IMG/VR virus record: IMGVR_UViG_3300036857_000586
Coordinates: 1 to 23,257 of that record
Reading direction: 5' to 3' (one strand)
DNA length: 23,257 bases
From: a virus
Shown in pieces: positions 1 to 19,542 of the stretch. Positions within the stretch are counted from its first letter, which is position 1. Each line of letters begins with the position of its first letter. The notes beneath the pieces are model-generated. The model made no database searches. It was given only the letters and a program-made list of their open reading frames with translations, and was not told the DNA's origin. The position numbers were made by a program, and so were the translations under genes.

Positions 1-720
1 GGGCAGATCGGCGCGCAGCTTTTCCAGCATCGGCTTGTTGGTGTCGAGCCAGCGCTCGACCTTGTCGACGTCCTCGATCATGCCGAGGACGTTGAGGAAG
101 CGGTGCGCCCAGTTGTCCCACGGCTCGTTGCCGACGCGCTCCAGCATCACCGGCTCGTTCGGATTGACCGGTGGCTGCGCTGTTGCCGGAGCAGGCGAAG
201 ATGGCGGCGTCGGACGCCGCACGTTGGTGCGGTCGGGATCATCGGTGGTCGGAATCTGGAACAGGCTCATCAGAAAGAACTTGCGCGCAGCGCTGTGGCA
301 CTTGTTCAGTCCCTTGTCGTCGAACGTGCCCTTACTGGTGCGCGTGTTGGCGACACCGGTCTGCTGCTGCTGCAGCGGCCAGACCTGTCCAGAGTTGTGC
401 ATGATGGTGAAGTCGTAGGTGGCGAAGATGGCGTTGCCCTTGTCCATGAATCCGCGCTCGCGCTCGCTCTGCAGGATGGTGAGCCCGTGCTTGGACATGA
501 TCGGGGCAAGCGCCGTGATGATGTCCTGCAGGCGCGCAAAATTGTAACCGTGAAAGGTGTTGCGGCCTTCCTTCAGGATTGGATGCTCGGCGATCTCGGC
601 GGTGATGGCTGAAATGGCGGCAGCCACCTTGTCGAACGGCGTCACCGGCAGCGCGGGCGGCGGCGCGGCGGGCGCGGTCGGTGGCGCTTCGGCCTGCGTC
701 TCGGTGATCTCGTTGCTCAT
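1..720 (-). CDS. erf: ERF-family single-strand DNA annealing protein (3' end outside window)
   Basis: Recombinase of the ERF (essential recombination function) family. These proteins anneal complementary single strands and are used by phages for recombination and genome circularisation. The visible 240 residues start at an ATG after an Ala/Pro-rich leader (residues 11-27). The ERF core follows: a helix with HPILKEGRN at about 46-53, then FARLQDIITALAP at 61-73, and the family's closing segment KCHSAARKFFLMSLF with IPTTDDPD at about 140-163. The N-terminal core is therefore complete; a Pro-rich linker and a C-terminal part follow and run off the window edge. The start ATG overlaps the stop of the exonuclease gene upstream (ATGA), so the two are probably translationally coupled. 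This is the usual exonuclease-plus-annealase pair. Family assignment is by motif recognition. Confidence 0.9.
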   Translation of the reverse strand, partial: MSNEITETQAEAPPTAPAAPPPALPVTPFDKVAAAISAITAEIAEHPILKEGRNTFHGYNFARLQDIITALAPIMSKHGLTILQSERERGFMDKGNAIFATYDFTIMHNSGQVWPLQQQQTGVANTRTSKGTFDDKGLNKCHSAARKFFLMSLFQIPTTDDPDRTNVRRPTPPSSPAPATAQPPVNPNEPVMLERVGNEPWDNWAHRFLNVLGMIEDVDKVERWLDTNKPMLEKLRADLP

Positions 721-1514
721 GCTGCGTCTTTCTTCTGCTGGATGCTGAGCGCACCGCGCTTGTTGCGGTTGATGCTGATGTTGTGAAAACGCAGGCGACC
801 GACGTCGTTTGGCACCAAGGATTTGGCCGACGCCGCCGCCTGTGCATGCAGGTCGGCGAAGGACTTGGTTTCGGACCAGACCTGCAACTGCTCGATCATC
901 TCCTCTTTCCAGTTTGGGTCCTCGACGGTGAGATCGATGTTGCGCCATTTCTCCGGCGGGTAGACCGGTGCGACGGGGTGCGGCGGTGTGATGGTCTCGA
1001 CGCAAATCTTGAAGGCGCAGATGCGCTCGAAGGCTTCGTCACGGAAGGCCTGATCGAAATCGATGTCGACCTCGACCGGCTCGTGGCCCAGCACCGAGAT
1101 CAGCAGCAGCGCATTGCGACAGCCGACGATCTCGCGCTGTACCTCGATCTGCGCTGCATACCAGCGGCGCGCGAAGTCGAACGACACAGAGGTCTTGATC
1201 TCGACCACCGCATCGCGCTGCGCATCGAACCCGTCGAGTGTGCATGTCAGCCAGTCGAACTTCGGATGCTGGTGCACCGCGCCGACGTCGCTGAAGGCGT
1301 AGCCCAGCTTGCGCTCCTGCCAACTGCGAATGAACGGCTCCATGTGCGCGCCGCGCTGCACCTCCCAGACGTTGGACAGATCGGGCGGCGCTGCCAGCCC
1401 GCACTTGACGCGCCAGAGATCGTTGCGCTGCTCGTCGGTGCCAGCCACGATCACCGGACAATCGGAAGCACCGATCTCTCCGCGCGCTGCGAGTTGTTCT
1501 GCGGTCAGTGGCAT
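717..1514 (-). CDS. YqaJ/lambda-type exonuclease (viral recombinase)
   Basis: A 265-residue protein of the YqaJ viral recombinase family, a PD-(D/E)XK nuclease related to lambda exonuclease. Such enzymes digest one strand of duplex DNA from the ends and hand the 3' tail to an annealing protein. Visible motifs are the N-terminal GASDCPVI (residues 15-22), E59 in GAHMEP, D94 in TLDGFD, E105 and K107 in VVEIKTS (the catalytic E-x-K), and a Gln-rich helix AQIEVQ at 121-126. These match the order of lambda exonuclease active-site residues. It lies between a helix-turn-helix gene (10-base overlap upstream) and ERF (ATGA overlap downstream). Length is normal for the family and nothing is broken. Its partner in end resection is very likely the ERF protein next to it. 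Confidence 0.92.
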   Translation of the reverse strand: MPLTAEQLAARGEIGASDCPVIVAGTDEQRNDLWRVKCGLAAPPDLSNVWEVQRGAHMEPFIRSWQERKLGYAFSDVGAVHQHPKFDWLTCTLDGFDAQRDAVVEIKTSVSFDFARRWYAAQIEVQREIVGCRNALLLISVLGHEPVEVDIDFDQAFRDEAFERICAFKICVETITPPHPVAPVYPPEKWRNIDLTVEDPNWKEEMIEQLQVWSETKSFADLHAQAAASAKSLVPNDVGRLRFHNISINRNKRGALSIQQKKDAA

Positions 1515-2235: not shown

Positions 2236-2487
2236 ATGGCAAATGATACTCCCATCCAACTGAACACCTTCGAGGGCATCGTCAAGCGCATCGGTGGCGT
2301 CAAGGCCGTCGCCGACGTCACCAATCGCAGCACCAATTCGGTGTTCAACTGGCGCGCCAAGGGATTCTTCCCGCCGCATATCTATTTCCTGATCGATGAC
2401 GAACTGCGCAGGCAGGGTTACACCGCGGCGCGCTGGCTGTTCCAGTTCGATGAGCCGCAACCACTACGCAAACGCAACGTGGCATAG
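2236..2487 (+). CDS. Cro/YdaS-like DNA-binding protein
   Basis: First gene of the rightward operon, 83 residues. Residues about 10-48 (FEGIVKRIGG, VKAVADVTNRS, TNSVFNWRAKGFFPP) form a helix-turn-helix of the Cro/YdaS type, in which the recognition helix is followed by a W-x-x-x-G-x-x-P turn. The C-terminal part is amphipathic and ends in a basic tail. Position next to a divergent control region with a dyad suggests it binds there and switches early transcription. The ATG at 2236 is preceded only by a weak purine stretch, and an ATG at 2232 is out of frame. The 3' end is close to the next gene (11-base gap). Fold is confident; role as Cro-like regulator is inferred from position. Confidence 0.8.
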   Translation: MANDTPIQLNTFEGIVKRIGGVKAVADVTNRSTNSVFNWRAKGFFPPHIYFLIDDELRRQGYTAARWLFQFDEPQPLRKRNVA

Positions 2488-2497
2488 GTGTCTGGCT

Positions 2498-2911
2498 ATG
2501 GGGCAGCTTTCGCTGTTTGCAGGCAAACGGCAGCGCGGGCTGAAGCCACCCGGCAGGCATGAGTTTGCACTGCATGTGCTGGTGGCCGACATTCTGCGGC
2601 GCTGGGGTACCACCGGCTGGCGCTGGACGCATCTGCCGTTCGGCGAGAAGCGCAACGTGATCACGGGCGCGCGCCTCAAGCGCATGGGCACCAAGCGCGG
2701 CTGGCCTGATTTCATTCTGCTGTCGCCGTACCCGGCCAAGGCACACTTCCTCGAACTGAAGCGCGAAGGCGGCACACTCACCGACGAGCAGCAGGACCTG
2801 CAGATGTGGCTCGTCGCCAACGGCTACGAGTACAAGGTCGCCGACAACTTCCGAGATGCGGTCAACATCCTGCGTGATTGGGGCGCGGTGCGCGCCAGCG
2901 TGAACGCATGA
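2498..2911 (+). CDS. VRR-NUC domain nuclease
   Basis: A 137-residue protein of the VRR-NUC family, PD-(D/E)XK nucleases common in phage replication modules and related to the nuclease domain of FAN1. The core motif is visible: RGWPDFILL with D71, then AHFLELKRE with E86 and K88 as the E-x-K pair, then TLTDEQQDLQMWL, the helix that typically follows in this family. The frame is open further upstream (to 2396), but I chose the ATG at 2498 because AGGTG precedes it and it clears the previous gene. It probably trims branched DNA or flaps during replication or recombination; the substrate cannot be read from sequence. The last bases overlap the next gene (ATGA). Confidence 0.85.
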   Translation: MGQLSLFAGKRQRGLKPPGRHEFALHVLVADILRRWGTTGWRWTHLPFGEKRNVITGARLKRMGTKRGWPDFILLSPYPAKAHFLELKREGGTLTDEQQDLQMWLVANGYEYKVADNFRDAVNILRDWGAVRASVNA

Positions 2912-3126
2912 TCCCGAGTGCCTTCCGTGCCAACTGTGAATTTTGCAAGCGCGAGATCGATACGCGCGCAGATGGCACGCATCAGTACACATCGGGCTGG
3001 GTCAAGGTGCGCAGCGGTGGCGGTGGCCACGGCATCTCGCTGCCCAAACGCGAGAACCGCTGGGCGTGCAGCTACTGCGTCGATAGCGCCGCACGCGGAT
3101 TCCTTCAGCAAGGGAAGTTGTTCTGA
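2908..3126 (+). CDS. Small Cys-pair (zinc-ribbon-like) protein
   Basis: A 72-residue protein starting at an ATG that overlaps the stop of the nuclease gene (ATGA). Two Cys pairs, CEFC at about residues 11-14 and CSYC near residue 54, are separated by about 40 residues, as in a small zinc ribbon. Between them is a Gly-rich segment (SGGGGHG). No enzyme motif is seen. In this position it may be a nucleic-acid-binding accessory of the replication operon, but that is inference. An upstream in-frame ATG at 2878 would add ten residues and is less likely because the overlap start is typical here. Confidence 0.7.
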   Translation: MIPSAFRANCEFCKREIDTRADGTHQYTSGWVKVRSGGGGHGISLPKRENRWACSYCVDSAARGFLQQGKLF

Positions 3127-3752
3127 TGCGTTGCGTCGTCGCCTACTATCGCGTCTCAACACACAGGCAGATTGCTGCGCTGGATGTGCAGCAATCGCAG
3201 GTTCGCAGGTTTGCACAGACCGAAGGTCTGCAGATCATTGCAGAGTATTCAGAGATCAGGACCGGGAGAGGCTCCCTCGCACGGCGACCAATACTTGCTG
3301 CGGCAATCAAACAGGCGCGCAGAGCGAAGGCTGTCATCTGTGTTGCCAGTCTCGACCGGCTGTCCCGAGATGTCCACTTCATCAGCGGTCTGATGGCGCG
3401 CCGCATCCCATTTATTGTGACCAAGCTGGGCATCAACGCAGACCCTTGCCTCCTGCATATCCACGCTGCCATTGCCGAACAAGAACGGCGAATGATCTCA
3501 GAGCGCACCAGCGCTGGATTACGCGCTGCCAAGCAACGCGGTGTGAGACTGGGAAGCCCGACAATCGCAATTGCTAATCGTTTGGCGGCTCAACGGCGCG
3601 CTGAAGTTCTGCGACCGATTTTCGAGACATTACGAGGATGCTCGCTGCGAGCCATCGCCGACGAACTCAATCGCAAAAAAATCGAAACGCCACGCAAGCT
3701 GCGCTGGTCGGCAATGACAGTTGCGCGCGTGCAAAAACGACTGGGTGTCTGA
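3126..3752 (+). CDS. Small serine recombinase (resolvase/invertase-type)
   Basis: A 208-residue serine recombinase. The catalytic serine is S11 in YYRVST, and the second signature ASLDRLSRD (residues 74-82) carries the active-site arginines. HIHAAIAEQERRMISERT begins the long E helix, and AAKQRGVRLGSP leads into a C-terminal helix-turn-helix (SLRAIADELNRKKIETP, then RWSAMTVARVQKRL). The length suits resolvases and invertases, not large serine integrases. It resembles the 'recombinase family protein' group frequent in Hyphomicrobiales. It shares one base with its neighbours on both sides (TGATG), so it is a true operon member. It may resolve multimers, invert a segment or act in integration. 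No other site-specific recombinase is seen in the window. Confidence 0.9.
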   Translation: MRCVVAYYRVSTHRQIAALDVQQSQVRRFAQTEGLQIIAEYSEIRTGRGSLARRPILAAAIKQARRAKAVICVASLDRLSRDVHFISGLMARRIPFIVTKLGINADPCLLHIHAAIAEQERRMISERTSAGLRAAKQRGVRLGSPTIAIANRLAAQRRAEVLRPIFETLRGCSLRAIADELNRKKIETPRKLRWSAMTVARVQKRLGV

Positions 3753-4009: not shown

Positions 4010-4935
4010 GCCATGATCTTAAAGGCGTCGAGCGCACACGCGCGATCATCCGCGGCGCAGCACTCAGCATTATTCGTCAGGTGTTGGAGAAGCCGGACTT
4101 CGACAAGGCGCGCAGCGGCGAAGTCAGGCGAGATTGGCTGGCACCGCCGCCGCTGTCGGCATTCCAGCGGCTGGAGCCGATGGGTTTTGGCCTGACCGAC
4201 GAGGAGAACTGGTGGTGCTTCAACCCGTACGACTGCCCGCCTGATCTGGTTTGGCCGCTCGATGTCGGTCTCATCACCGAGGAGGGCGGCACCGACCCGC
4301 CGGGGCTGGTGATGTCGCGGACGTATACGATCACACCCAAGCAGGCGCGCGGATACGCGCATCGCTTCGGCCCGTTCATGGTACGCAGCGATCACGCACA
4401 GATGGAGCGCGGCCAACTGATGCGGACCGCTGCGCTGTATGTCTGGCTCGGTGGACAGTGGTCCGACGCATCGAACCGTGTGATGTGGGAGGGCACAGCC
4501 GATAAGCCGTTGCACACGCGCGCCGGGGCGTTGCCACAGCGTGACCGCATGCAGCCTGCACTGCACACCTCAATGGGGTTGAGACAGCGTTATGAGTGGG
4601 CGGTTGCGCTTGGTCTCGACAATAGCCCGAGCATCCGTTTCGCCACCGATCCAACCGGCATCAAGGAAGTATTCCGCATTCGCGATCTGCCTGCAGGTAG
4701 GGACCGGCGCGAGGCGCTGCTCAACTGGGTGACGCAGCATTGGCGGCAAGATCGCCGTGATTCTGATGTCGAGGTCTATGTGCGCAAGCATCTGCGCGGT
4801 GCGACCGCATTCAACTGGCGCGGGATGAACTGCGAGTTGTTGCCTTCGCAATTTGACATCGACAAGCGCGATCAGTTGAAGGCCGAACGCGAGGCGATGC
4901 ACGTTGTTGGCACCGACCGGAGACAACGAGCATGA
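4006..4935 (+). CDS. Conserved-looking phage protein, function unknown
   Basis: A 309-residue protein beginning at an ATG that overlaps the previous stop. I see no catalytic motif, signal peptide or membrane segment. It is rich in Trp and Arg, with a Trp/Cys/Asn patch (NWWCFNPYDCPPD, about residues 67-79). The C-terminal segment VRKHLRGATAFNWRGMNCELLPSQFD (about residues 254-281) looks like a conserved element, and a charged tail follows. The frame extends upstream beyond 4006, but that part is antisense-like and overlaps the preceding gene. Genomic position between a recombinase and the primase suggests a DNA-replication or regulatory role, but the sequence does not show one. Confidence 0.7.
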   Translation: MSHDLKGVERTRAIIRGAALSIIRQVLEKPDFDKARSGEVRRDWLAPPPLSAFQRLEPMGFGLTDEENWWCFNPYDCPPDLVWPLDVGLITEEGGTDPPGLVMSRTYTITPKQARGYAHRFGPFMVRSDHAQMERGQLMRTAALYVWLGGQWSDASNRVMWEGTADKPLHTRAGALPQRDRMQPALHTSMGLRQRYEWAVALGLDNSPSIRFATDPTGIKEVFRIRDLPAGRDRREALLNWVTQHWRQDRRDSDVEVYVRKHLRGATAFNWRGMNCELLPSQFDIDKRDQLKAEREAMHVVGTDRRQRA

Positions 4936-5138
4936 CACCGATGCACGCGTACGGCATCTGGGTCGGACGCTGCGGCAAGCCGGGATGCCGTGCCGTGCAT
5001 ATCGATTTTGTCGACGAGCAGGGCGACGTGATCGCGTGCGCGTGCATCGCGGTCGACGACGTGCGCGGGTTCACCGAGAACATCAAGGACTGTGCCTACG
5101 CCATCATCGCCGGACAGCAGGAGGAGCCGCGGCAATGA
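4932..5138 (+). CDS. Small hypothetical protein
   Basis: A 68-residue protein linked by ATGA overlaps to both neighbours, which strongly supports it being translated. It has Cys residues at GRCGKPGC near the N-terminus and at IACACIAV in the middle, and an acidic C-terminal half (DDVRGFTENIKDCAYAII). The N-terminal half alternates hydrophobic and polar residues like a small beta sheet. The family is not recognised. It could be a small partner of the primase encoded directly after it. Confidence 0.65.
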   Translation: MTPMHAYGIWVGRCGKPGCRAVHIDFVDEQGDVIACACIAVDDVRGFTENIKDCAYAIIAGQQEEPRQ

Positions 5139-6094
5139 CAGCAGCCGAGACTATCGCCCGCGCGCTCGGCGGTCGCCGTATCGCCCGCAACGAGTGGCGC
5201 TGCCGCTGCCCGGCGCACGCCGACCGCGACCCGTCGCTCGACGTGATGGACGGCGATCTCGGCGTGGTGGTGCGCTGCCGCGCCGGGTGCACGCAGGAGG
5301 AGGTGATCAGCGCGCTGCGACGGCAGGCGCTGTGGCCGGAGAACGACGGAGAGCAGCATGGACGTGATCGACATAGCAGCCGACGCGGCGATGGCGAGAC
5401 TGCCCAGCGCAAGGTGCAGGCGCTGCGCATCTGGGATGCGGCGCTGGACCCAAGGTATACGCCTGCGGAATTTTATCTGGCTCAGCGAGGGCTGCTGCTG
5501 CCGACGGATGCGCCGCTTTCGCTCGTGCGCTTCCATCCGCGCTGCCCGCGCGGGAGCGCGACGGCTCCGGCGCTGATCGTGCTGATGCGCAGCGTACGCG
5601 ACAACCAGCCGTGCGGCATCCAGCGCATCTTCATCGACTTGCAAACGCTGCAGAAGGACAGGTGTGAGACCTCGCCCAGCGGCACCATGATGCTGGGAGC
5701 CTGCGAAGGCGCAGCCATGATGCTCAGTAGCTGGCATGATACGTTCTGGGATTGCCTGTCGTTCTGTCCGCGCCTGTTTGTCTGCGAGGGTTTTGAGACC
5801 GGTGTGGCGCTCTCGATGCGCGGTCACGTTCCGGTGTGGGCACTCGGCGACGCCGGGCGCATCGCGCGGCTGCCGCTGCTGTTTGCAGTCGGCCAGCTTG
5901 TGATCTGCGCCGACCACGACCGCGTCAATGCAAAGACCGGCAGGCGGGCAGGGCTTGCCGCCGCGCTCGAATGCCGGGCGCGCTGGAATGCATCGAGCCA
6001 CCAGAGCGCGGTGATCTGGAACGTCGATTCAGAAGGCGAGGATTTCGCCGACTGGGGTAGGGATCATGGTCAAGAAGGTCGAGCCGCCGTTTGA
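5135..6094 (+). CDS. Zinc-finger/Toprim DNA primase
   Basis: A 319-residue primase-type protein. An N-terminal zinc site is visible: C23-x-C25-P-x-H28 in WRCRCPAHADRDPS, with C48 and C52 in VVRCRAGC, as in CHC2-like primase fingers. The Toprim region has the conserved glutamate in LFVCEGFETG (E218/E221) and the acidic pair D260-x-D262 in VICADHD, which bind metal for primer synthesis. The organisation matches phage and plasmid primases that work with a RepA-type helicase, and that helicase follows directly, overlapping by 29 bases. The start ATG overlaps the previous stop (ATGA). Primer synthesis at the phage origin is inferred from family and context. Confidence 0.87.
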   Translation: MTAAETIARALGGRRIARNEWRCRCPAHADRDPSLDVMDGDLGVVVRCRAGCTQEEVISALRRQALWPENDGEQHGRDRHSSRRGDGETAQRKVQALRIWDAALDPRYTPAEFYLAQRGLLLPTDAPLSLVRFHPRCPRGSATAPALIVLMRSVRDNQPCGIQRIFIDLQTLQKDRCETSPSGTMMLGACEGAAMMLSSWHDTFWDCLSFCPRLFVCEGFETGVALSMRGHVPVWALGDAGRIARLPLLFAVGQLVICADHDRVNAKTGRRAGLAAALECRARWNASSHQSAVIWNVDSEGEDFADWGRDHGQEGRAAV

Positions 6095-7367
6095 AGCACC
6101 GCCCGGCACACACTGGTACGATCCAGAGCAGCTTGAACAGCCGCCGGAGCAGGGCGAACCGAAAGCCAACGGCGACGACAAGCATGCCATCCTCCTGCGT
6201 GAGTTCGAGGCCAGAGATTTTACCCAGATCGCCATGCGCTCATGGGAGCATGCCGGGCACTACATCCGCAGAAACGTGGTGATGACGGTTGCGCCGGGTG
6301 CCTACGGCAAGACGTCGCTGGTATTGCTCAATGCGATTGAGATGGCGCTCGGGCGCGGGCTGATCGGCCCGCCGCCAGCCAAGCGCGTGCGCGTGCTGTA
6401 TTGGAACGGCGAGGACCCGGACGACGAAATCCTGCGCCGCATCGCGGCGATCTGCATCCGCTACCAGATCGATCAGCACGATCTGGTGGGCTGGCTGTAT
6501 CTGGGCGGCAAACTGCGGATGGAGCAGCGGCTCGCCCTGCTCGACCGCAATCAGCAGCTTGTGATCAACACCGAGGTGCTGATGGGGGTCGAGAAGTACA
6601 TCGGCGATCACGGCATCGATTGCGTGATCTTTGACCCGCTGGTGGCGTTCCACCGCGTGCGTGAATCGCTGAACGAACTGATGGAGCAGATGGTGCAGAC
6701 TGCCTTCGGCGGTCTGGCCGAGCGGCGCAACTGCTGCATCGAACTTTGCCAGCACACCAGAAAATCATCGCAAGCCGCACGCGATGGCGATCTCGGGGTC
6801 GACGACAGCCGCGGCGGCGGTTCGATCACCAATGCGGCGCGCTCGGTGCGGGTGCTGAACCGGATGAGCAAGGAGGACGCCAAGCTACCCGGTTTCGACG
6901 ATGAGGAGCGCCGCCAGTATCTGCGCGTGTCGCAGGACAAAACCAACATGCTGCCAGCCAGCAAGGCTTCGTGGATCAAGCTGGGCTCGCAGCAACTGCC
7001 GAACGGTCCAGATGGCGGCCCCGGTGACAACGTGCAGGTGGTGGAGAAGTGGAACTACCCCGCGCCGTTCGATGGTGTGACGGTTGCCGACCTGAATTGG
7101 ATCAGGAGCGCGGTGCTGCAGGGTACCTATCGCAAACATCGGCGCAGCCCAGATTGGGTCGGCAAGTTGCTGGCGAAGCGCCTGCGGCTCGATGTCGAGA
7201 AGAAATCGGACGCCGAGCGCATCAGCCAAATTCTGAGAAAGTGGTTTGCCGAGCGCGTGTTAGCCACCGCAGTGCGGCGCGATGAAAAGCAGCGCAAAGA
7301 CTACGAATACATCGTTCCCGGCGACCTGAACGAGGGTGACGCAAGTGCGCCGACGTTCGACGAATAA
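6066..7367 (+). CDS. RepA-like AAA/RecA-fold replicative helicase
   Basis: A 433-residue ATPase. Walker A is APGAYGKTS at residues 76-84, and Walker B is CVIFDP with D190. A downstream segment ELCQHTRK (about 226-233) followed by RGGGSITNAARSVRVL matches the RepA/AAA_25 group of hexameric helicases, where QHTRK is the sensor region and RG..I..AAR the following loop. The N-terminal 50 residues are Pro/Glu-rich and probably flexible. The C-terminus (about 350-420) looks like a winged helix that could contact DNA. It overlaps the primase gene by 29 bases and is the last gene of the operon. It is directly followed by a repeat-rich segment that could be its target or the transcript end. Confidence 0.87.
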   Translation: MVKKVEPPFEAPPGTHWYDPEQLEQPPEQGEPKANGDDKHAILLREFEARDFTQIAMRSWEHAGHYIRRNVVMTVAPGAYGKTSLVLLNAIEMALGRGLIGPPPAKRVRVLYWNGEDPDDEILRRIAAICIRYQIDQHDLVGWLYLGGKLRMEQRLALLDRNQQLVINTEVLMGVEKYIGDHGIDCVIFDPLVAFHRVRESLNELMEQMVQTAFGGLAERRNCCIELCQHTRKSSQAARDGDLGVDDSRGGGSITNAARSVRVLNRMSKEDAKLPGFDDEERRQYLRVSQDKTNMLPASKASWIKLGSQQLPNGPDGGPGDNVQVVEKWNYPAPFDGVTVADLNWIRSAVLQGTYRKHRRSPDWVGKLLAKRLRLDVEKKSDAERISQILRKWFAERVLATAVRRDEKQRKDYEYIVPGDLNEGDASAPTFDE

Positions 7368-7492
7368 CGGCGCACTATGGCGCGGCACCCCAGTGCGGTG
7401 TAGCTGCGCCGATGTTTATCTCTCTATAGAGATAAAACATCGGAGCGGCGCACCTTGGCGCGTGCGCCAACATCGCCGCGAGTAACGGCGCA
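7345..7492. repeat. CGGCGCA/TGCGCCG repeat array with central hairpin
   Basis: The 7-base motif CGGCGCA occurs exactly at 7368-7374, 7446-7452 and 7486-7492, and its complement TGCGCCG at 7346-7352 and 7405-7411. A sixth copy with one change lies at 7463-7469. That is five exact copies in about 150 bases. Arms at 7345-7352 and 7368-7375 form a perfect 8-base inverted repeat around the helicase stop codon. The strings GAATAACGGCGCA and GAGTAACGGCGCA mark the two sides (7362 and 7480). Between them sits the AT-rich hairpin listed separately. This looks like an origin, packaging site or complex terminator; which one is not shown by sequence. Confidence 0.6.
7409..7443. repeat. Long AT-rich hairpin
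   Basis: Arms of 15 and 16 bases (7409-7423 and 7428-7443) pair completely except for one extra A, around a CTAT loop. The outer part is CCGATG/CATCGG and the inner part TATCTCT/AGAGATA. The TGCGCCG and CGGCGCA copies flanking it extend the symmetry outward with a small bulge. There is no T run on either side, so a simple intrinsic terminator is not the best reading. Confidence 0.8.
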
Positions 7493-7508
7493 GATGAGAG
7501 GCAGTGCC

Positions 7509-7778
7509 ATGCCGAGAGGTGGTTACAGAGAAGGTGGAAGCGGGAATGCGAGATGGAAGGCTGCCGTGATTGGGGCACGGCTGCAGAAAGGTAATAGAGG
7601 CAGGAGATTGTGCACGGCCATCAAGAAAAATGGTGAGCGGTGCCGCGGTATAGCAATCAATAATTGGCACCGATGTTTTGCGCACGGTGGAGCGTTCGTC
7701 TTGATGAGGAGAGGCCTCTACATCAGTAGAAGGGTGAGGTATGGCAACTGGACGAAAAGAGAAAATACTCAGAAATGA
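7509..7778 (+). CDS. HGG-motif Cys-rich small phage protein
   Basis: An 89-residue very basic protein. The segment LCTAIKKNGERCRG, then WHRCFAHGG (about residues 35-63) has the pattern C..A....G..C...A......C..HGG. This pattern is typical of the short HGG(x)TP-type proteins found near terminase genes in alphaproteobacterial phages, and it probably binds zinc. Their function is unknown. AGAGG precedes the ATG by seven bases; an in-frame ATG at 7494 is an alternative. Codons AGA, AGG and GGA are common here, unlike the neighbouring genes, so this gene and the next may have come from another source. It overlaps the next gene by 38 bases. Confidence 0.7.
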   Translation: MPRGGYREGGSGNARWKAAVIGARLQKGNRGRRLCTAIKKNGERCRGIAINNWHRCFAHGGAFVLMRRGLYISRRVRYGNWTKRENTQK

Positions 7779-7965
7779 GGTTAGAGATGCGTTGTTGGAC
7801 ATACTGCGCGACAAGAAGAATCCAGCAACAGCAAGAGCAAGCGCAGCGCGCACGCTGATGGACATGGACCGCGCGGGTGAGGGCGGCGAGCAACGGTCAC
7901 CGCAGGAGATGACCGAGCAGGAGATCGACGAAGAACTCGCGAGTATCCCCAGCAAAAAGCGTTGA
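7741..7965 (+). CDS. Small helical protein, possibly terminase-associated
   Basis: A 74-residue, highly charged and helical protein. The segment ILRDKKNPATARASAARTLMDM (about residues 21-42) resembles the helical part seen in phage small-terminase-like proteins. The acidic tail (EMTEQEIDEELASI) could be a partner-binding element. It lacks a clear helix-turn-helix, so I do not call it the small terminase subunit. The gene starts inside the end of the HGG gene, suggesting coupling. The large terminase is 14 kb away in this window, which weakens the packaging link unless the genome is circular or permuted. Confidence is good that it is translated, low for function. Confidence 0.6.
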   Translation: MATGRKEKILRNEVRDALLDILRDKKNPATARASAARTLMDMDRAGEGGEQRSPQEMTEQEIDEELASIPSKKR

Positions 7966-8224
7966 TGCAGAAAGCGCTGTGCTGCAGTGATTGCTGGGCC
8001 AGCAGTGCGTCATGGTCTCTACACTCTCACCCCATGAGATCACCCTGCCCATGTGCTGCTGGCACCCCATCTCAATCTCATGACATGCTGACGCTCGTCG
8101 GTGTGTCAGGGCCACTGGTCCGGCGGGCCACTGGTCCTATGCCAGTAATCGCGACCCCGCCCCCTGCCAGCCCCCGAAACTCAGCGCGAAGATGGACGTA
8201 TCCCACCCCGCCAAATTTTTTGTC
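7966..8224. other. Non-coding convergent region with tandem 13-bp repeat
   Basis: Rightward genes end at 7965 and leftward genes end at 8225, so this is where transcripts converge. The 13-base string GGGCCACTGGTCC occurs twice, at 8109-8121 and 8125-8137. CATGAGAT at 8033-8040 is inverted at 8075-8082. No strong hairpin with a T run is seen, and no gene with convincing codon use. Confidence 0.55.
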
Positions 8225-8668
8225 CTACACACTGTCGTCGCCGTGATAGCCGCGCAGCGAGCACGACCGCTCCAGCTTCGCCGCCAGCGCCTTGTCGACA
8301 ACGTCGGCACGTCCCTTCCACCACGACACCGGTTTCCGGTCGATGCCAGTTCCGGTCGGTGGGATGATGCGGCCTACCGCTGCGACATCACCGCCAGCGC
8401 CACTGCGAATGGCAGGATCAGCACCAACAGCAGCGCCCACCAGCTTTCTGCGCCTGACGCCAGCAGCAGCACGCCTGCGATGCAGCCCGCGCTCCAGCCC
8501 GCGATCAGCGCCAGCAGTTCGCGTCTCACCATCATCACAAATACCACCGATCAATCGAACCAACTCGGCCCGCGCCGCCGTCAGCCGTCCATCGCAGACC
8601 AGCAACCCCAGTTCAGCCAGCCGTGCCTCAAGCCTTGCCCAGATCGCCGCCGCCGTCTCTGATCGCAT
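8225..8668 (-). CDS. Hypothetical protein containing an overprinted gene
   Basis: A 147-residue open frame starting at an ATG with a strong Shine-Dalgarno sequence (GGAGGAG, four bases before the start). The first 50 residues (TAAAIWARLEARLAEL, LTAARAELVRLIGG) are helical with normal GC-rich codons. The last 50 (KPVSWWKGRADVVDKALAAKLERS) also show normal codons. The middle is Arg/Ala/Gly-rich with codon use typical of an out-of-frame reading, and there a membrane protein is encoded in another frame (8374-8535). Either this is one long protein with an embedded gene, or two genes merged by a lost stop or frameshift. It overlaps the end of the upstream gene by 41 bases. Family not recognised. 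Confidence 0.5.
   Translation of the reverse strand: MRSETAAAIWARLEARLAELGLLVCDGRLTAARAELVRLIGGICDDGETRTAGADRGLERGLHRRRAAAGVRRRKLVGAAVGADPAIRSGAGGDVAAVGRIIPPTGTGIDRKPVSWWKGRADVVDKALAAKLERSCSLRGYHGDDSV
8374..8535 (-). CDS. Small two-helix membrane protein (embedded gene)
   Basis: A 53-residue protein starting MMVRRELL with two hydrophobic helices. The first (about residues 7-26, ALIAGWSAGCIAGVLLLA) is followed by a short turn SGAES, and the second (about 31-50) is WWALLLVLILPFAVALAVM; the end is SQR. Basic residues before helix 1 suggest the N-terminus stays inside. Codon third positions are GC-rich in this frame, which argues it is the true frame in this stretch. GGTGG lies about nine bases before the first ATG. 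Size and topology fit a small holin, antiholin or membrane accessory protein, but it lies far from the lysozyme and this is only a possibility. Confidence 0.6.
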   Translation of the reverse strand: MMVRRELLALIAGWSAGCIAGVLLLASGAESWWALLLVLILPFAVALAVMSQR

Positions 8669-8855
8669 CGCGCTCCTCCATGATCTCGACCGCCCAGCCG
8701 CGCCGGGCGCAGTAGTCGAGCGCAGCATAGCCCTTCCAGCCCTTCATGTAGGAGACGATGGGCGCGCAGCGCACGACGACGCCGTTCTCGATCACCACCC
8801 CGGCGACGAAGTGCGGTGCGAGAATACGGGCGAGACAAAAAACTGGCCGTGACAT
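8628..8855 (-). CDS. Small conserved-looking phage protein downstream of a terminator
   Basis: About 75 residues from the ATG at 8855 (GTG at 8858 is an alternative). The core APHFVAGVVIENGVVVRCAPIVSYMKGWKGY, then CARRGWAVE, looks like a family of short phage proteins with the pattern HF.AG...E.G.V..API..YM.GW. The function is unknown to me. The start codon lies inside the loop and stem of a strong terminator hairpin (8837-8865), and no Shine-Dalgarno sequence precedes it. Translation may need read-through of that hairpin, or the true start may be a GTG near 8798. The coding frame is well supported; the start is not. Confidence 0.65.
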   Translation of the reverse strand: MSRPVFCLARILAPHFVAGVVIENGVVVRCAPIVSYMKGWKGYAALDYCARRGWAVEIMEERDAIRDGGGDLGKA

Positions 8856-8865
8856 CACGGCCAGT
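8837..8865 (-). terminator. Intrinsic (Rho-independent) terminator
   Basis: A perfect 11-base inverted repeat (8842-8852 and 8855-8865, arms ACTGGCCGTGA/TCACGGCCAGT, two-base centre) is followed on the minus strand by six T (8842-8837). This is the clearest terminator in the window. It would end transcripts from the minus-strand operon to its right or a short RNA starting near 8943. Confidence 0.85.
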
Positions 8866-8943
8866 CAGGGATCGGTTTGGGAAGCACGAACTTCGTCCTG
8901 CAAGAGCGGGGCACCGGCCAAAACCAAAAGGTGCCTCGATTGC
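8837..8943 (-). ncRNA. Candidate small RNA or attenuator leader
   Basis: An extended -10 box TGCTATACT (8958-8950, minus strand) would start a transcript near 8943 that ends at the strong terminator at about 8837, roughly 107 nucleotides. Inside it are GGCACC and GGTGCC, able to pair as a 5' hairpin, and a small ACGAAGTTCGT stem. No convincing coding frame fills this stretch. No good -35 box is seen, as expected for an extended -10 promoter. It could be a free small RNA or a leader controlling the gene at 8855. Confidence 0.45.
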
Positions 8944-8949
8944 GCCGCC

Positions 8950-8958
8950 AGTATAGCA
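8950..8958 (-). promoter_or_regulatory. Extended -10 promoter TGCTATACT
   Basis: Matches the TGnTATAAT consensus at eight of the nine positions when n is free. The expected -35 positions carry no TTGACA-like sequence. It points leftward to the candidate small RNA. A plus-strand alternative (TTGCGC at 8940, TATCAT at 8962, 16-base spacer) overlaps it and would give an almost leaderless transcript for the gene at 8974. Confidence 0.4.
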
Positions 8959-8973
8959 CGTTATCATCCGGCC

Positions 8974-9168
8974 ATGCACGCGCTGGCATGGTTTGCGCTC
9001 GGCATCTTCATCGGCACCAGTTTCGGTTTCCTGCTGGCGGCGCTTGTGCGCGCCAGCCGTGACCTATTCCAGCAGCGACATCCACCACGCCAGCGCGAAG
9101 GCGAGCACACAGGCGAGCAGCAGGTACACGGCGAGGTCGTCATCGTCCATCATCCGGCGCGTATATAG
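8974..9168 (+). CDS. Possible small single-helix membrane protein
   Basis: A 64-residue frame beginning MHALAWFALGIFIGTSFGFLLAAL, a clear membrane helix with a GxxxGxxxG-like face, followed by RASRDLFQQ. The start resembles very short membrane proteins of the DUF3789 type. Codon use is good for the first 33 residues and poor afterwards, and the second half lies opposite the minus-strand gene at 9064-9153. It is the only plus-strand candidate inside a minus-strand block and has no Shine-Dalgarno sequence, so it may be chance. Confidence 0.35.
   Translation: MHALAWFALGIFIGTSFGFLLAALVRASRDLFQQRHPPRQREGEHTGEQQVHGEVVIVHHPARI
9064..9153 (-). CDS. Very small membrane protein (29 residues)
   Basis: Starts MMDDDD, followed by one membrane helix (LAVYLLLACVLAFALAWWM) and ends SLLE. 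The acidic N-terminus followed by a helix with two Trp at its end suggests a single-pass peptide with the N-terminus outside. The start overlaps the end of the upstream Cys-rich gene, so it could be coupled to it. GC-rich third positions support it. It is too short for homology-based assignment by eye. Nearby tiny membrane proteins on both strands at this locus are noteworthy. Confidence 0.5.
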   Translation of the reverse strand: MMDDDDLAVYLLLACVLAFALAWWMSLLE

Positions 9169-13392: not shown

Positions 13393-14802
13393 GTGGTTAC
13401 GCTCAAGCGCCCGGCGCGCCTATTTTCGTTTGCCGACTGGAACATCAACCAGCCGAAGGAGCCGCCGCCCGGCGACCGGCTCGACGCCCAATTCCTCGAA
13501 TTGATCGACGTCATATCGCAAACGCAGAATGCGTTGGCCGAGATCAGGCGTGATGACGGCACTCTTAACAACGAACTGGTCGGTCCCGAGCAGCTACGGA
13601 CAAATTTCCGTGATCTGCTGATCGGCGACATCGAGCAGCGCTTCAAGGTTACCGTCGATCTGATCAGTGCCACTGCGCGCGCGGTCAGTGACAGTGAGCG
13701 CAGCACGCAACTGTTCGCGCAGGACGCCGAGCGCGCGCTCACGGTCGCGCAGCAACTGATCTCCGACTGGAATATGATCCGTGAGGCGGCGCAGCGCACA
13801 TCGAGCAGCGTGCAGATCGCCGCCGCGGCGGTCACCAACGAAGCCACCGACGCCGAGAACTGGGCCGACTACGCGCAGGCGCAGGCCGAGAACGCCATCG
13901 AGGCCAAAGACGAGGCACTGCAGTGGGCCGAGTATCTGGCTGGACCGGTGGTCGATGCCGTCAGCGCGCCCGACTACATCGCCAACTCGCCGTTCCCGAA
14001 CGGATTGTTCTATCAGCCGGTCGACGGCGGCGTGGCCGGATTGTGGTCGGCGAAATGGTGGGCGCTGCAGGCGCGCAACTATGCGGGCGGCCTGACCGGA
14101 ATTTATCTCGGCCCGTTCGATCATCAGCCGCAGCCGGGCGAACAAAACCCCGATACTGGACAGGTAGTGCCTGATCCGATTCAACCGGGTGCGCTCTATT
14201 TCGACACCACGATCAATCAAATGATGGTGTGGGATGGCAGCGAGTGGTCGCCGCTCGGTGGCATTCCAGACGCGCCATACGACGGCAAGCTGTATGGACG
14301 CATCGATGCGACGTGGGGACTCATCCCCAGCGGTCCCGAAGGCGGGCTGCCGGAAGCGCCGGTCGATGGCAAACAGTACGGACGGCAGGACGCGGCGTGG
14401 ACCGAAATTCCGAGTGACAGTGGCATTCCAGAAGCGCCGGTTGATGGTCAGCAATATGCGCGCAAGGACGCCGCGTGGTCAGTGGTGACTGGCGGTGGTG
14501 CCATCGCCGATGACGCGCCAATCGATGACAACACCTATGCGCGCCGCAACAGTGCGTGGGTGCGCACGATCTGGGCCGACAATCTCAACGCTGCCGGAGA
14601 GACCGTCAACGCCAACATCACCTTCACCGGATACATCTACAGCAACGGCGGCGCGGATTTCACTGAATCTGTCTATTTCTATCACACGGTGAATCTCGAA
14701 GCTGCTGTCTACGTCGAGCAGACCCCCACCAATCCGAAGCACGCGGTCAACAAAAGTTACGTTGATGCGCAGCTTGTCACGCTCGACGGCGGCACATTCT
14801 GA
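13393..14802 (+). CDS. Tail-fibre or host-contact protein with repeats
   Basis: A 469-residue late protein. The N-terminus (LKRPARLFSFADWNINQPKEPPPGDRLDAQFLELID, then ALAEIRRDDGTL, GPEQL) is a recurring phage pattern, probably the virion-attachment part. A long Ala-rich coiled-coil-like region follows (about residues 80-180, SARDAERALTVAQ and AQAQAENAIEAKDE). Residues about 290-392 hold four repeats of about 25 residues with the pattern P-x-A-P-x-D-G-x-x-Y-x-R-x-x-A-x-W. The end has HAVNKSYVDAQL, a motif common in tail fibres and also present at the 15500 gene. The start is a GTG at 13393 without a clear Shine-Dalgarno sequence. TTGAAC and TAGGTT about 18 bases apart at 13284-13313 may be its promoter. 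Confidence 0.8.
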   Translation: MVTLKRPARLFSFADWNINQPKEPPPGDRLDAQFLELIDVISQTQNALAEIRRDDGTLNNELVGPEQLRTNFRDLLIGDIEQRFKVTVDLISATARAVSDSERSTQLFAQDAERALTVAQQLISDWNMIREAAQRTSSSVQIAAAAVTNEATDAENWADYAQAQAENAIEAKDEALQWAEYLAGPVVDAVSAPDYIANSPFPNGLFYQPVDGGVAGLWSAKWWALQARNYAGGLTGIYLGPFDHQPQPGEQNPDTGQVVPDPIQPGALYFDTTINQMMVWDGSEWSPLGGIPDAPYDGKLYGRIDATWGLIPSGPEGGLPEAPVDGKQYGRQDAAWTEIPSDSGIPEAPVDGQQYARKDAAWSVVTGGGAIADDAPIDDNTYARRNSAWVRTIWADNLNAAGETVNANITFTGYIYSNGGADFTESVYFYHTVNLEAAVYVEQTPTNPKHAVNKSYVDAQLVTLDGGTF

Positions 14803-14817
14803 ACAGGAGGAAACATC

Positions 14818-14970
14818 ATGGGCGTTCGTTACGAAGTGCCGGAAGGAAAGACCGCAACTATCGAAGGGCCGTGCAGCATCGAGGTGGTCGGTGATCCCGG
14901 CAAGGTGCCGCAGATCGGCGATACCGCGCCACCGGAGCCGCCGCCGGAGTCGCCACCGGAGGTGAGGTAG
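14818..14970 (+). CDS. Small Pro/Glu-rich protein
   Basis: A 50-residue protein whose ATG is preceded by AGGAGG. The first half is beta-like (RYEVPEGKTATIEGPCSIEVVG) and the second is PPEPPPESPPEV, a flexible acidic tail. It is placed between tail genes and may be a small virion or assembly protein. Not recognised. Confidence 0.7.
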   Translation: MGVRYEVPEGKTATIEGPCSIEVVGDPGKVPQIGDTAPPEPPPESPPEVR

Positions 14971-14979
14971 GAGAGGACG

Positions 14980-15279
14980 ATGCCAAAACGTCCAAAAAAA
15001 TTTAAGGCGAAGAAGCTGAAGGCAAAACCCAAAAGCAAACGGAGAAAGCAGATGGCTCGTGACGACGATGACAGAAAGAAACCGGCTGGCCCGACGACCA
15101 CCTCGCAGCACGGTTCGCGTCCTGACATGCAGAAGCAGCCGCAGCAGGACCAGAAAAAGCAGGGCGGCAGCGCCCCTGATCCGATGGGGCAGCCGCCGGG
15201 ACCGTCACCGGCTCCGAATCCTGAGAGCGCACCGGGTGGTGACAAGGTTGGCGGTGGCGAGGAGCCTGCGCAGAAGTGA
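14980..15279 (+). CDS. Basic, disordered small protein
   Basis: A 99-residue protein with a very basic start (KRPKKFKAKKLKAKPKSKRRK) followed by a Gln/Pro/Gly-rich tail. No folded domain is apparent. GGAGAGG lies before the ATG. Small basic proteins of this kind occur among phage structural genes; DNA binding is possible but unproven. Confidence 0.7.
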   Translation: MPKRPKKFKAKKLKAKPKSKRRKQMARDDDDRKKPAGPTTTSQHGSRPDMQKQPQQDQKKQGGSAPDPMGQPPGPSPAPNPESAPGGDKVGGGEEPAQK

Positions 15280-15491
15280 TATGGCCGGTTGACCCGCCCA
15301 AGAAACGCGCGCCGCGGCGACCGATGTGGCTTGCCGCGGTTATTGCCGTGCCTGATGTCACCATGCCAGACAATGCCGTGCGCATGTATGCAGGCGCGCT
15401 CGCTGGCGACAATGTCGCGCACGAGATCAAGCAGACGTTTGACGACAACCATCCGCAGCCACCGGAGGAGGTGCCAAAGACTACGGAGTGA
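15276..15491 (+). CDS. Small hypothetical protein, GTG start
   Basis: A 71-residue protein beginning at a GTG that overlaps the previous stop (GTGA), with GGAG about ten bases upstream. Segment WLAAVIAVPDVTMPDNAVRMYAGALAGDNVAHEI is mixed helix and strand; the tail DNHPQPPEEVPK is acidic and Pro-rich. No family is recognised. It is likely an accessory of the tail genes around it. Confidence 0.65.
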   Translation: MIWPVDPPKKRAPRRPMWLAAVIAVPDVTMPDNAVRMYAGALAGDNVAHEIKQTFDDNHPQPPEEVPKTTE

Positions 15492-15499
15492 TTGCTGCA

Positions 15500-16366
15500 A
15501 TGACTTACTACCGGCATCGACGTACATCGAATCCGGCGACTGCTTTCCCATCGCCGATTGAGCCCGGCGAGATCGCTGCCAATACCGCCAACCGGCAACT
15601 CGCTATCGGTGACGCCGACGCAGCATCGCTTGGCACACCAGTGCCGCTGATCGCTATCCGTTATTTCGATGCGCGCGCTTCGTACAAGATCAACGAATGG
15701 GTGGTGGTGAACAACAACCTTTATTTATCAAAAGGCAATGTTGCTCCCGGTTCGTTTAATCCCGCTCAGTGGCAACTAGCGCCAAACGATCTGACCAAGT
15801 TGGTGCTGAAAGATGGTGACACCGTTTCCGGTGCAATACGGACAACCCGTACACCGTTCGCGTTGGCGGATGAATTTGTTTCTAAGCAATACGTCGATGC
15901 TGGAGATGCACTGCCTGCCACCAGCATCGCCGATGGTATCGTCACTTTTGCCAAGATGGCGGCAACCGCGCTGGCGACGGCGGCGGAATATCTCAGCGCG
16001 ACCGCCAATAAAATTCTCACAGCAGATGGCGTGTGGGCGGCGGCAGTGCCGGTGGCGCTGGCTGATGCCGCAACGGTGACGCCAAATTTCGGTGCAGGCA
16101 TCGATTTTTATTGGACGCTCGGTGCTGCTGGTCGCACGCTCGCCAATCCAATCAACGGAAAGCGCGGCCAGAAGGGCATCATCTACTTGATACAGGACGC
16201 CACTGGTGGTCGCACCATCACCACTTGGGGCAGCGCTTATAAATTTTCCGGCGGTGCGAAACCTACGCTCAGTACCACTGGCGGAGCATGGGACATGTTG
16301 TCTTACGCTGTCGGCAATAATCCGGCAACGCAAGTCAACTGCACGTTCATTGGGGATGTGCGCTGA
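15500..16366 (+). CDS. Tail-fibre or receptor-binding-type protein
   Basis: A 288-residue protein from ATG 15500, chosen because GGAG is 11 bases upstream; a GTG at 15488 is an alternative. The N-terminus (RHRRTSNPATAFPSPIEPGEIAANTANRQLAIGD) is a typical attachment-like segment in alphaproteobacterial phage fibres. A YKINEWVVVNNNLYLSKGNV segment (about residues 53-75) resembles carbohydrate-module-like repeats. FVSKQYVDAGDAL shares the NKxYVDA-type motif with the 13393 protein. The C-terminus is beta-rich with ITTWGSAYKFSGG, NPATQVNCTFIGDV. Such proteins form trimeric fibres contacting the cell surface. Confidence 0.8.
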   Translation: MTYYRHRRTSNPATAFPSPIEPGEIAANTANRQLAIGDADAASLGTPVPLIAIRYFDARASYKINEWVVVNNNLYLSKGNVAPGSFNPAQWQLAPNDLTKLVLKDGDTVSGAIRTTRTPFALADEFVSKQYVDAGDALPATSIADGIVTFAKMAATALATAAEYLSATANKILTADGVWAAAVPVALADAATVTPNFGAGIDFYWTLGAAGRTLANPINGKRGQKGIIYLIQDATGGRTITTWGSAYKFSGGAKPTLSTTGGAWDMLSYAVGNNPATQVNCTFIGDVR

Positions 16367-17127
16367 TGCTGCCGGGAAACACAGTATTTTTGGCGGGCGG
16401 CAAATCATACGGCAAAGGGAGTGTGACTCTTACTGCCGGGGCGACGTGGACCGTTGATCCCACGTTTGATCCAACCAAAAATACTGTCGAGTGCTACGCG
16501 GCTGGGGGAGGCGGTGCGGGTGGCTATCAGTATTGCGGTTTGGGTGGCGCTGGCGGTGGCTATTCCAAGATCAGCAATTTGCCGCTCACTCCCGGCTCCA
16601 TCGTCGACATGGCGATTGGCTTGGGCGGTGCTGGGGGTGGTCGCGCCGCTGCTGGGACTGCCGGTGGCGATACTTGGTTTGTCAGCGCTGCGACTGCACT
16701 GGCAAAGGGCGGTGGTGCGGGCCAATACGGAAATGCCAGCAAGCCGGGTGCTGCTGGCGGCGCGGCAGCGGATGGTGTTGGCGATGTAAAGTACAGCGGC
16801 GGTGCGGGTGGTGGCACCAACTTCGCAACGCCACGCAGCGGCGGTTCAGGTGGCGGCGGTGGTGCTGGTCCAAATAGCGATGGCACGCATGGCACCGATC
16901 AGAACGGGTCTGGAAATTTGGGATTGCCGGGAGGCCCCGGCGGCGGCGGTCTTGCGGGCGCAGGCGGTCGTGGCGGCGATGGTCTCACATACGGATCAAC
17001 CATTCCGGTAGTAGGCGGCAATTACGGTGGCGGTGGCGGCGGCGGTGGTCTTGGCGGGACCATCAATGCTCAGACCACTGGTGCCAAGGGCGGGGATGGC
17101 GTCATCAAGATCACTTGGGGGCAATGA
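16366..17127 (+). CDS. Glycine-rich tail or adhesin protein
   Basis: A 253-residue protein that begins in a TGATG overlap. After a short beta segment (VTLTAGATWTVDPTFDPTKNTVECYAAGGGG), residues about 48-250 are dominated by runs of Gly and Ala (AGGGGAGG, GGAGGGY, GGGGGGGGLGG) ending DGVIKITWG. Gly-rich domains of this form are found in phage tail adhesins and fibre tips, where polyglycine-II helix bundles bind the receptor. It directly follows a fibre gene, so a shaft-tip pair is plausible. The DNA here is a low-complexity GGT/GGC tract that may vary between relatives. Confidence 0.8.
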   Translation: MLPGNTVFLAGGKSYGKGSVTLTAGATWTVDPTFDPTKNTVECYAAGGGGAGGYQYCGLGGAGGGYSKISNLPLTPGSIVDMAIGLGGAGGGRAAAGTAGGDTWFVSAATALAKGGGAGQYGNASKPGAAGGAAADGVGDVKYSGGAGGGTNFATPRSGGSGGGGGAGPNSDGTHGTDQNGSGNLGLPGGPGGGGLAGAGGRGGDGLTYGSTIPVVGGNYGGGGGGGGLGGTINAQTTGAKGGDGVIKITWGQ

Positions 17128-17441
17128 TGATGCTGGATACGAAAAAAATCATTGTCGCTTTGCTGCTGCTCACGACCAGCAGTCACGCGCAGCCACCCAC
17201 CGATTGCATTCCGCAAAATCAGTTGGAGCGCATCCGCGAGATCATGCTCGACGGCATCGACATGGCGTTCAAGGAGCATATCGCGCATCTGCTCAGCGTG
17301 CTGATCAAGGACCCGAAGGACCAGCCAGACCGCGCCATTGCGGGATTGCGGCCAGCGATCAAGGCCTACGTCAGTGGGCGGATAGCTGTGGTGAACTGGA
17401 ATCCAGCGACATGTGAGGAGCGAAACGATGGGCGCAACTGA
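17124..17441 (+). CDS. Small secreted protein near the lysis genes
   Basis: A 105-residue protein with a signal peptide: positive DTKK, hydrophobic IIVALLLLTTSS, then cleavage around SHA-QPP. Two Cys (TDC and ATC) could form a disulphide in the periplasm. The mature part is helical (LERIREIMLDGIDMAFKEHIAHLLSVLIKD). Three ATGs in a row overlap the previous stop; I chose the first. It stands just before a holin-like gene and a lysozyme, so a role in lysis is possible, but it has no lipobox for a spanin. Confidence 0.65.
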   Translation: MMMLDTKKIIVALLLLTTSSHAQPPTDCIPQNQLERIREIMLDGIDMAFKEHIAHLLSVLIKDPKDQPDRAIAGLRPAIKAYVSGRIAVVNWNPATCEERNDGRN

Positions 17442-17685
17442 CGATGCCAGCAGGGCAGTGGTAGGTGTTGCTGACGCCATGCGCAGCCAGCCGCTGGCGC
17501 TGGCGCTGGTGATCATCAATCTGCTGTTTCTCGGCGCTGGTGGATTTTTTCTGCATGAACTCGGGATTGCCACCGTGCGCGAAAATGAGCGGCGCGACGA
17601 TTTGATCGCTGATCTCGCCAAGCGCTGTCTTGCCGCCACGCCACCAGCCAGCAAGAACAACAAGGAGGATCGCGATGCTCGATAA
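17428..17685 (+). CDS. Holin-like membrane protein
   Basis: An 85-residue protein with one strong membrane helix (about residues 24-46, LALALVIINLLFLGAGGFFLHEL). An N-terminal acidic helix and a charged C-terminal tail (ENERRDDLIADLAKRC, KNNKED) complete it. GAGGAG precedes the ATG at 17428. It sits immediately upstream of the lysozyme gene and overlaps its start, so a holin role, releasing the lysozyme through the inner membrane, is the best inference. It could also be another phage membrane protein. Confidence 0.7.
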   Translation: MGATDDASRAVVGVADAMRSQPLALALVIINLLFLGAGGFFLHELGIATVRENERRDDLIADLAKRCLAATPPASKNNKEDRDAR

Positions 17686-18763: not shown

Positions 18764-18772
18764 GAGGCAGCG

Positions 18773-19159
18773 ATGGGACTACGGTTGGTGCAGTTGTTAG
18801 TGGATCAAGCGCAGCGCGGTGAAGGTCCGTTTGCCGGGGTGATCCCGCGCACGAATCAAACGATGACGTTGCCGCCGCTCGACATCAGCAACCAGCTTGC
18901 TGACATCAAGACTGCTGCCGAGCGCATGCACAACAATCCGTTTTCAAATGAACTGCCGCAGCCGCAGCAACAGCAGCCGCAGGCTGCTGGCATCAGCGCG
19001 CTCGCTGCTCCGGCACCGTTGGTGCAGCAACCGACGGCACAACAACAGCAAAACCCATTGGTGCGCGCCAACACTCTGGTGCGTTCGCTGCCGGATCAAC
19101 TCGGCGAGATCGCCGCGCCAGCCAGCAGACGGCGTGGCACCTACAAGGAGATCGTCTAG
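18773..19159 (+). CDS. Gln-rich hypothetical protein
   Basis: A 128-residue protein. AGGAGG precedes the ATG. An N-terminal helix ([13 protein letters not shown]) is followed by a helical segment ([15 protein letters not shown]) and a low-complexity region of Gln and Pro ([15 protein letters not shown]). A basic end [10 protein letters not shown] follows. Likely a small virion-associated protein; no family recognised. Confidence 0.7.
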
Positions 19160-19176
19160 CAACAAGGGAGAAACGC

Positions 19177-19538: not shown

Positions 19539-19542
19539 CCTG

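Follow-up and report, generated by a model that had tools for sequence, protein, structure and literature searches.

Known Origins Adjacent to Helicase Genes

Helicases of the DnaB/RepA class, which have a RecA fold, normally need a separate initiator or loader. In the IncQ plasmid RSF1010, the origin oriV combines iterons with hairpins that serve priming, and the iterons are bound by a separate protein, RepC, RepA itself having no C-terminal domain of the kind described below. The alpha protein of phage P4 is helicase and origin binder in one and acts on short iterons. P4 alpha and its cognate site are also mentioned in connection with SaPI/PICI elements, whose origin directly follows the initiator gene on its 3' side and holds two iteron sets (PMC6092414). 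In SCCmec, short iterons lie downstream of the gene for Cch2, and the isolated C-terminal domain of this helicase binds them (PMC7581432). The SaPI/PICI pri-rep-ori arrangement consists of primase and initiator helicase genes followed at once by two sets of short iterons around a melting site, with an element-specific iteron spelling and a helicase C-terminus that recognizes the iterons, and the known precedents with this layout work as origins (PMC6092414, PMC7581432).

We find the same order of parts in a window of 23,257 bases that comprises an entire IMG/VR virus record. A cluster of short repeats lies immediately 3' of a RepA-like helicase gene and is very probably the site at which this virus starts to copy its DNA. 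Specifically, with a probability of roughly 0.82, we take the segment for a replication origin of the iteron type in a tailed phage or a phage-plasmid; it would be bound by the helicase's own C-terminal winged helix. A replication origin was among the options raised in the initial annotation, and comparison with relatives strongly favors it.

The likeness to SaPI/PICI extends to the element-specific spelling of the iterons, and the part played there by the helicase C-terminus is suggested here by covariation between helicase residues and iteron bases. However, the helicase is SaPI Rep/MCM-like in SaPI/PICI, whereas here it is a RecA-fold, RSF1010-RepA/DnaB-like protein, the primase is of the Toprim type, the carriers are phages and phage-plasmids, and the long AT-rich stretch of SaPI/PICI usually has as its counterpart a pyrimidine/purine dyad with an A/T apex. 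Cch2 of SCCmec likewise differs, being an MCM/SaPI-Rep-like helicase accompanied by a polymerase-type primase, and a relation between Cch2 and this helicase was undetectable in PDB searches. P4 alpha belongs to a different class, being primase and helicase at once, whereas separate genes encode the two here. RSF1010 shares a RepA-family hexameric helicase with the window but differs in primase type, which is RepB' there and Toprim/DUF7146 here.

The Helicase Gene and Its Neighbors

The initial annotation had described primase and helicase genes upstream of the repeats and a small gene pair downstream, and all of these were confirmed as follows:

5135–6094, plus strand: Toprim/DUF7146 DNA primase gene (Pfam PF23639, 8e-18; PF13362, 6e-12; PHROG DNA primase)
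6066–7367, plus strand: RepA-like replicative helicase gene (Pfam AAA_25, 9.8e-26), proposed origin-binding initiator
7065–7331, plus strand: predicted winged-helix domain of the helicase, residues 334–422 (AlphaFold2 mean pLDDT 90.7)
7509–7778, plus strand: small gene A, with a C..C..HGG motif and a weak terminase-small-subunit match (PHROG 10899, 1.4e-4)
7741–7965, plus strand: small gene B (74 aa, from the ORF translation)

The primase start at 5135 is the likely one, picked from the translation, within a longest frame of 4904–6094. In a profile search of the PDB with the helicase, the sole sequence match was RSF1010 RepA (E 3.9e-26), which also occupied ranks 1–4 in Foldseek, followed by DnaB and other RecA-fold proteins. 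The last ~90 residues of the helicase lie outside the match to RSF1010 RepA, the PDB chain of which is 279 aa. AlphaFold2 predicts for this C-terminal domain three helices and a beta hairpin in winged-helix order, with residue 360 just ahead of the second helix and residues 408–410 in the wing. A Foldseek search with the domain alone returned nothing at E ≤ 0.001; because its weak matches are mixed, many being winged-helix proteins (PadR, MarR, Z-alpha, and BLM RQC) and others plant O-methyltransferases, the assignment as a winged helix depends mainly on the order of secondary structure elements. A separate iteron-binding initiator of the RepC type was absent from the window ORFs scanned.

Anatomy of the Repeat Array

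The segment behind the helicase gene contains the following features:

7344–7376: inverted iteron pair across the helicase stop, with 9-bp arms at 7344–7352 and 7368–7376
7346–7352, minus strand: iteron 1, an exact CGGCGCA copy; the minus strand at 7346–7357 reads AACGTCGGCGCA
7368–7374, plus strand: iteron 2, TAACGGCGCA, with a CGGCGCA core
7405–7411, minus strand: iteron 3, an exact CGGCGCA copy; the minus strand at 7405–7416 reads AACATCGGCGCA
7409–7443: central dyad (pyrimidine arm, A/T-rich apex), a candidate site of melting or priming
7446–7452, plus strand: iteron 4, with a CGGCGCA core
7455–7470: short 7-bp hairpin, TTGGCGC-GT-GCGCCAA, containing the degenerate iteron
7463–7469, minus strand: near copy (degenerate iteron) TGCGCCA, inside the short hairpin
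7486–7492, plus strand: iteron 5, the outermost; with iteron 2, at a distance of 118 bases, it forms a direct repeat (CGARTAACGGCGCA)

The five exact copies of CGGCGCA/TGCGCCG and the near copy noted initially are thus all located within 7346–7492, and the window iteron can be written as approximately RTCGGCGCA, nine bases long and present in both orientations around the central dyad. The 15/16-base hairpin described before is also present, with arms at 7409–7423 and 7428–7443, one bulged A, and a 4-base loop. The inverted repeat over the helicase stop codon (TAA, 7365–7367) exists as well but is a perfect repeat of 9 bp rather than 8, pairing AGTGCGCCG at 7344–7352 with CGGCGCACT at 7368–7376. 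Apart from its own inverted repeat, the segment has no second copy in the window.

The density of the motif was said to be unmatched in the window, and at a word length of 7 bases it is exceptional: dinucleotide shuffles of the window (n = 60) gave at most four copies of any 7-mer, on either strand, per 150 bases and never five, and CGGCGCA never exceeded three copies when the segment itself was shuffled 2,000 times. By exact 8-mers, however, another cluster in the window is denser (four copies vs. three in the array). The motif count also depends on scale, the local density exceeding shuffles while the total of 23 CGGCGCA copies in the whole window, compared with a shuffle mean of 17.3, is no clear excess (6 of 100 shuffles reach 23).

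A layered terminator or a structured RNA between the helicase gene and gene A was another option for such a segment. Folding of the plus strand is much stronger than in shuffles (z −6.1), and two weak, overlapping terminator-like matches are found at 7393–7411. However, the minus strand folds almost equally well (z −5.3), as is expected of any inverted DNA repeats, the strong hairpins are not followed by the T-tract that marks a GC-rich stem as an intrinsic terminator, the segment has no match in Rfam, and covariation of the repeats with the winged-helix domain would be left unexplained. We therefore regard a terminator or structured RNA as very improbable, and an RNA element in general was rejected on the Rfam result and the about equal folding of both strands. 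DnaA boxes were not found at 7001–8200.

Conservation of the Layout among Helicase Relatives

Relatives of the helicase were collected with a profile built from three helicases, which yielded 26 alphaproteobacterial loci, and by later searches that added plasmids and further genomes. They come mainly from alphaproteobacterial genomes, prophages, and phage-plasmids; the phage collection contained few. Arrays were called with a strict shuffle-based test that counted both orientations and required at least four copies between −60 and +280 of the helicase stop. Among the 73 loci with enough DNA, 50 passed, so that an array immediately 3' of the helicase gene, the SaPI/PICI feature seen in the window, is shared by most relatives; control windows passed the same test in 2 of 73 cases (1 kb upstream) and 1 of 70 (0.7 kb downstream). 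The 23 relatives that fail have weaker arrays (L023, L031, and L045), truncated helicases, or no visible array. Of 57 array regions, 39 contain a pyrimidine-arm dyad with an A/T apex (e.g., CCCTATAGGG and CCCCTTTAGGGG), where shuffles lead one to expect 6.9 and controls gave 2 of 57; this dyad-based test replaced an earlier, narrow regular expression that had found the central core in only 18 of 36. The central dyad is AT-rich in the window, whereas A/T is limited to the apex in most relatives.

The initial annotation had made conservation of the array in related phages a test of its proposal. What is kept is the architecture; the motif differs from element to element. In the closest relative (L003), the helicase of which is 58% identical, the same place shows the same anatomy built from a different motif, GACTGGAGCA: an inverted pair crosses the helicase stop, a hairpin occupies the center, and the outer direct repeat is spaced by 117 bases (118 in the window). 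The iteron motif of L010 is ACTGGCGCA. Four loci that possess the downstream small gene, L005, L015, L011, and L012, hold at the same position the unrelated motifs CTACGATC, CTACCAACG, CGGACAGTT, and CCGGACAG, and their upstream gene, where complete, encodes a more distant helicase. The array trails the helicase gene in relatives regardless of what lies downstream. Two loci, L036 (5209–5430) and L040 (5209–5460), have about twice the number of iterons and two dyads, as if an origin unit had been duplicated.

Covariation of Iteron Spelling with Helicase Residues

The iterons of the main helicase family are variants of RNTGNNGMA, from which the window iteron RTCGGCGCA, common to L063, deviates at base 3. 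Distances among motifs correlate with those among helicases (Mantel r 0.34–0.41, p 2e-4), a correlation that by itself could reflect shared descent. The Mantel tests alone did not separate the C-terminal from the ATPase domain, but a per-residue analysis did. Arginine or lysine at residue 360 goes with AC at iteron bases 1–2 (AT or GT in the window and L063), and glutamine goes with GG. This rule was first seen on 22 loci and held at seven further plasmid or genome loci and in L053–L090 except L061 and L064, which together with L035 are the exceptions that combine glutamine with a non-GG iteron. Over all automated motif calls, R/K is paired with a base other than G at position 2 in 17/17 and Q with G in 44/45; in loci fetched afterwards and analyzed with a fixed automated caller, R was found with C in 4/4 and Q with G in 15/15 (Fisher p 2.6e-4). 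The association between residue 360 and base 2 has a z of 25.6, the next helicase column being its direct neighbor at 8.9, and residue 360 still stands well clear of the other columns once near copies are removed.

In the wing, arginine at residue 409 is accompanied by C at base 8 in 52 of 52 loci and other residues by A in 8 of 12, and residues 408 and 410 track base 6; these wing correlations come from the data on which they were mostly also tested, and their test on a fresh set is weak (p 0.1). In ATPase-domain trees, residue 360 switches 7–8 times, and in nearly every sampled pair the motif shifts accordingly. Only 2–3 of these switches fall on strongly supported branches, and kinship may therefore still be a source of the covariation. 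That the spelling of the iterons follows a few residues in the proposed DNA-reading tail of the helicase suggests that the helicase itself would recognize the start site.

The Small Gene Downstream

Gene A begins 17 bases past the last iteron and weakly matches a terminase small subunit family, as would be expected if its protein recognized the array as a packaging site (cos or pac). Packaging was among the options raised initially. Yet gene A stays similar (84% identity to the window in L003 and 49% in L005) while the motif changes completely, and the motif covaries with the helicase and its residues, not with this terminase-like gene. Although gene A is a conserved neighbor in close relatives, the array also occurs without it: it accompanies helicase relatives in bacterial genomes, a collection in which no gene A relative was found, and in one plasmid an HGG gene sits 12 kb from the array. 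On these grounds, a role in packaging appears highly unlikely.

Between the window and L003, gene A is closer than the helicase at both the DNA and the protein level. This high similarity prompted the idea that the array had arrived on an inserted mobile element, which was rejected because arrays also stand behind helicases that lack gene A, and the motif varies with the helicase. A 37-base stretch within gene A (7702–7738, GATGAGGAGAGGCCTCTACATCAGTAGAAGGGTGAGG) is identical in L003 despite the 58% identity of the helicases, and gene A is overall unusually conserved, with a base composition unlike its surroundings.

Origin Function and a Proposed Mechanism

What the sequences show directly is the array, the conservation of its place and architecture, and the covariation of its iterons with residues 360 and 408–410; from these we infer protein–DNA binding, helicase loading, melting of the dyad, and a start of replication at the array. 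In the mechanism that we propose, the RepA-like helicase encoded just upstream would bind the iterons through its own C-terminal winged helix and assemble on the inverted iteron sets, that is, on both sides of the central dyad. The DNA would be opened at this dyad and the helicase thereby loaded, after which it would unwind outward while the neighboring Toprim primase makes primers.

The iterons could instead form a control site that is bound by the helicase winged helix or another DNA-binding protein and regulates transcription or copy number, with replication starting elsewhere. Plasmid iterons often control copy number too, and covariation at most tells who reads the site, not what the reading does. 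GC skew, which had been proposed as a check, gives the origin no independent support: its extremes in circular relatives are not on the array, making it uninformative here. Against a control site, however, no sigma-70-like promoter was found at 7200–8200, a helicase would be an odd choice of dedicated repressor, and a central dyad flanked by inverted iterons resembles the origins of helicase-initiators. We consider a control site unlikely and an origin the better reading of the array. In the window, the GC skew changes from +0.19 (7001–8000) to −0.18 (8001–9000) just downstream of the array; this flip near 8 kb falls where the coding strand changes too.

With regard to the family as a whole, it is probable, judging from sequence comparison, that this group of RecA-fold (RepA/DnaB-like) helicases, which is widespread in alphaproteobacterial phages and phage-plasmids, serves as its own origin-recognition protein. 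The fused winged helix would read 9-base iterons behind its own gene by a simple residue-to-base code (residue 360 for bases 1–2, residues 408 and 410 for base 6, and residue 409 for base 8), which would let each element diversify its origin specificity. If so, a self-recognizing helicase joins two initiation steps in one protein, as do SaPI Rep and SCCmec Cch2, which are of another class, and the layout with the origin behind the helicase, which PMC6092414 describes as a peculiarity of PICIs, reaches phages and phage-plasmids. The open-access literature yielded no account of a RepA/DnaB-like helicase recognizing iterons of its own; as far as it could be searched, satellites and SCCmec have this arrangement, but neither this helicase class nor phages had been described with it, nor had a residue-to-base code. 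The residue–base correlations make origin specificity testable by single substitutions, and the array offers a practical handle for locating origins in alphaproteobacterial prophages and phage-plasmids.

Further Carriers and Other Genes in the Window

The circular, phage-like 31.5-kb plasmid pVL1_6 carries the array together with this primase–helicase pair, which are the only recognizable replication genes in its (incomplete) gene table; known Rep families were absent from ten further proteins checked. This plasmid speaks for the origin reading. Another circular relative has repC besides the module, and the module may therefore serve lytic replication there. No array lies behind the helicase of Rhizobium phage RHph_X2_26. 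In Microcystis phage Mae-Yong1326-1 (L044), a cyanobacterial phage with a distant helicase relative, copies of ACTGGCGC and a long hairpin of 27 bp lie at 4820–4950, 140–270 bases downstream of the helicase gene, which suggests that arrays are spread wider than Alphaproteobacteria. The same genome has a strong tandem repeat (CGAGGGCTC, up to 14 copies) at about 6880–6920, in a region annotated as CobT subunit of cobaltochelatase.

The window also encodes a serine recombinase of the resolvase/invertase family (3126–3752), and similar "recombinase family" genes are annotated on the related plasmids pR24_3 and M. lotononidis unnamed3. Three dyads in 150 bases recall the subsites of a res site, but a resolvase site was set aside as less likely, the arrays accompanying the helicase in relatives and the recombinase gene lying 3.6 kb off. 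A YqaJ/RecE-like exonuclease gene (717–1514, minus strand) and a weakly matching VRR-NUC (Holliday junction resolvase-like) gene (2396–2911, plus strand) possibly form a recombination module. Large terminase, portal, and major capsid genes were not recognized among the window ORFs scanned. The region 13393–21768 contains genes of the fibritin-like and glycine-rich tail-fiber types, a GH25 endolysin gene (17630–18763), and a gene for a large polyvalent-type protein with LPD23 and DUF7178 (19543–21768).
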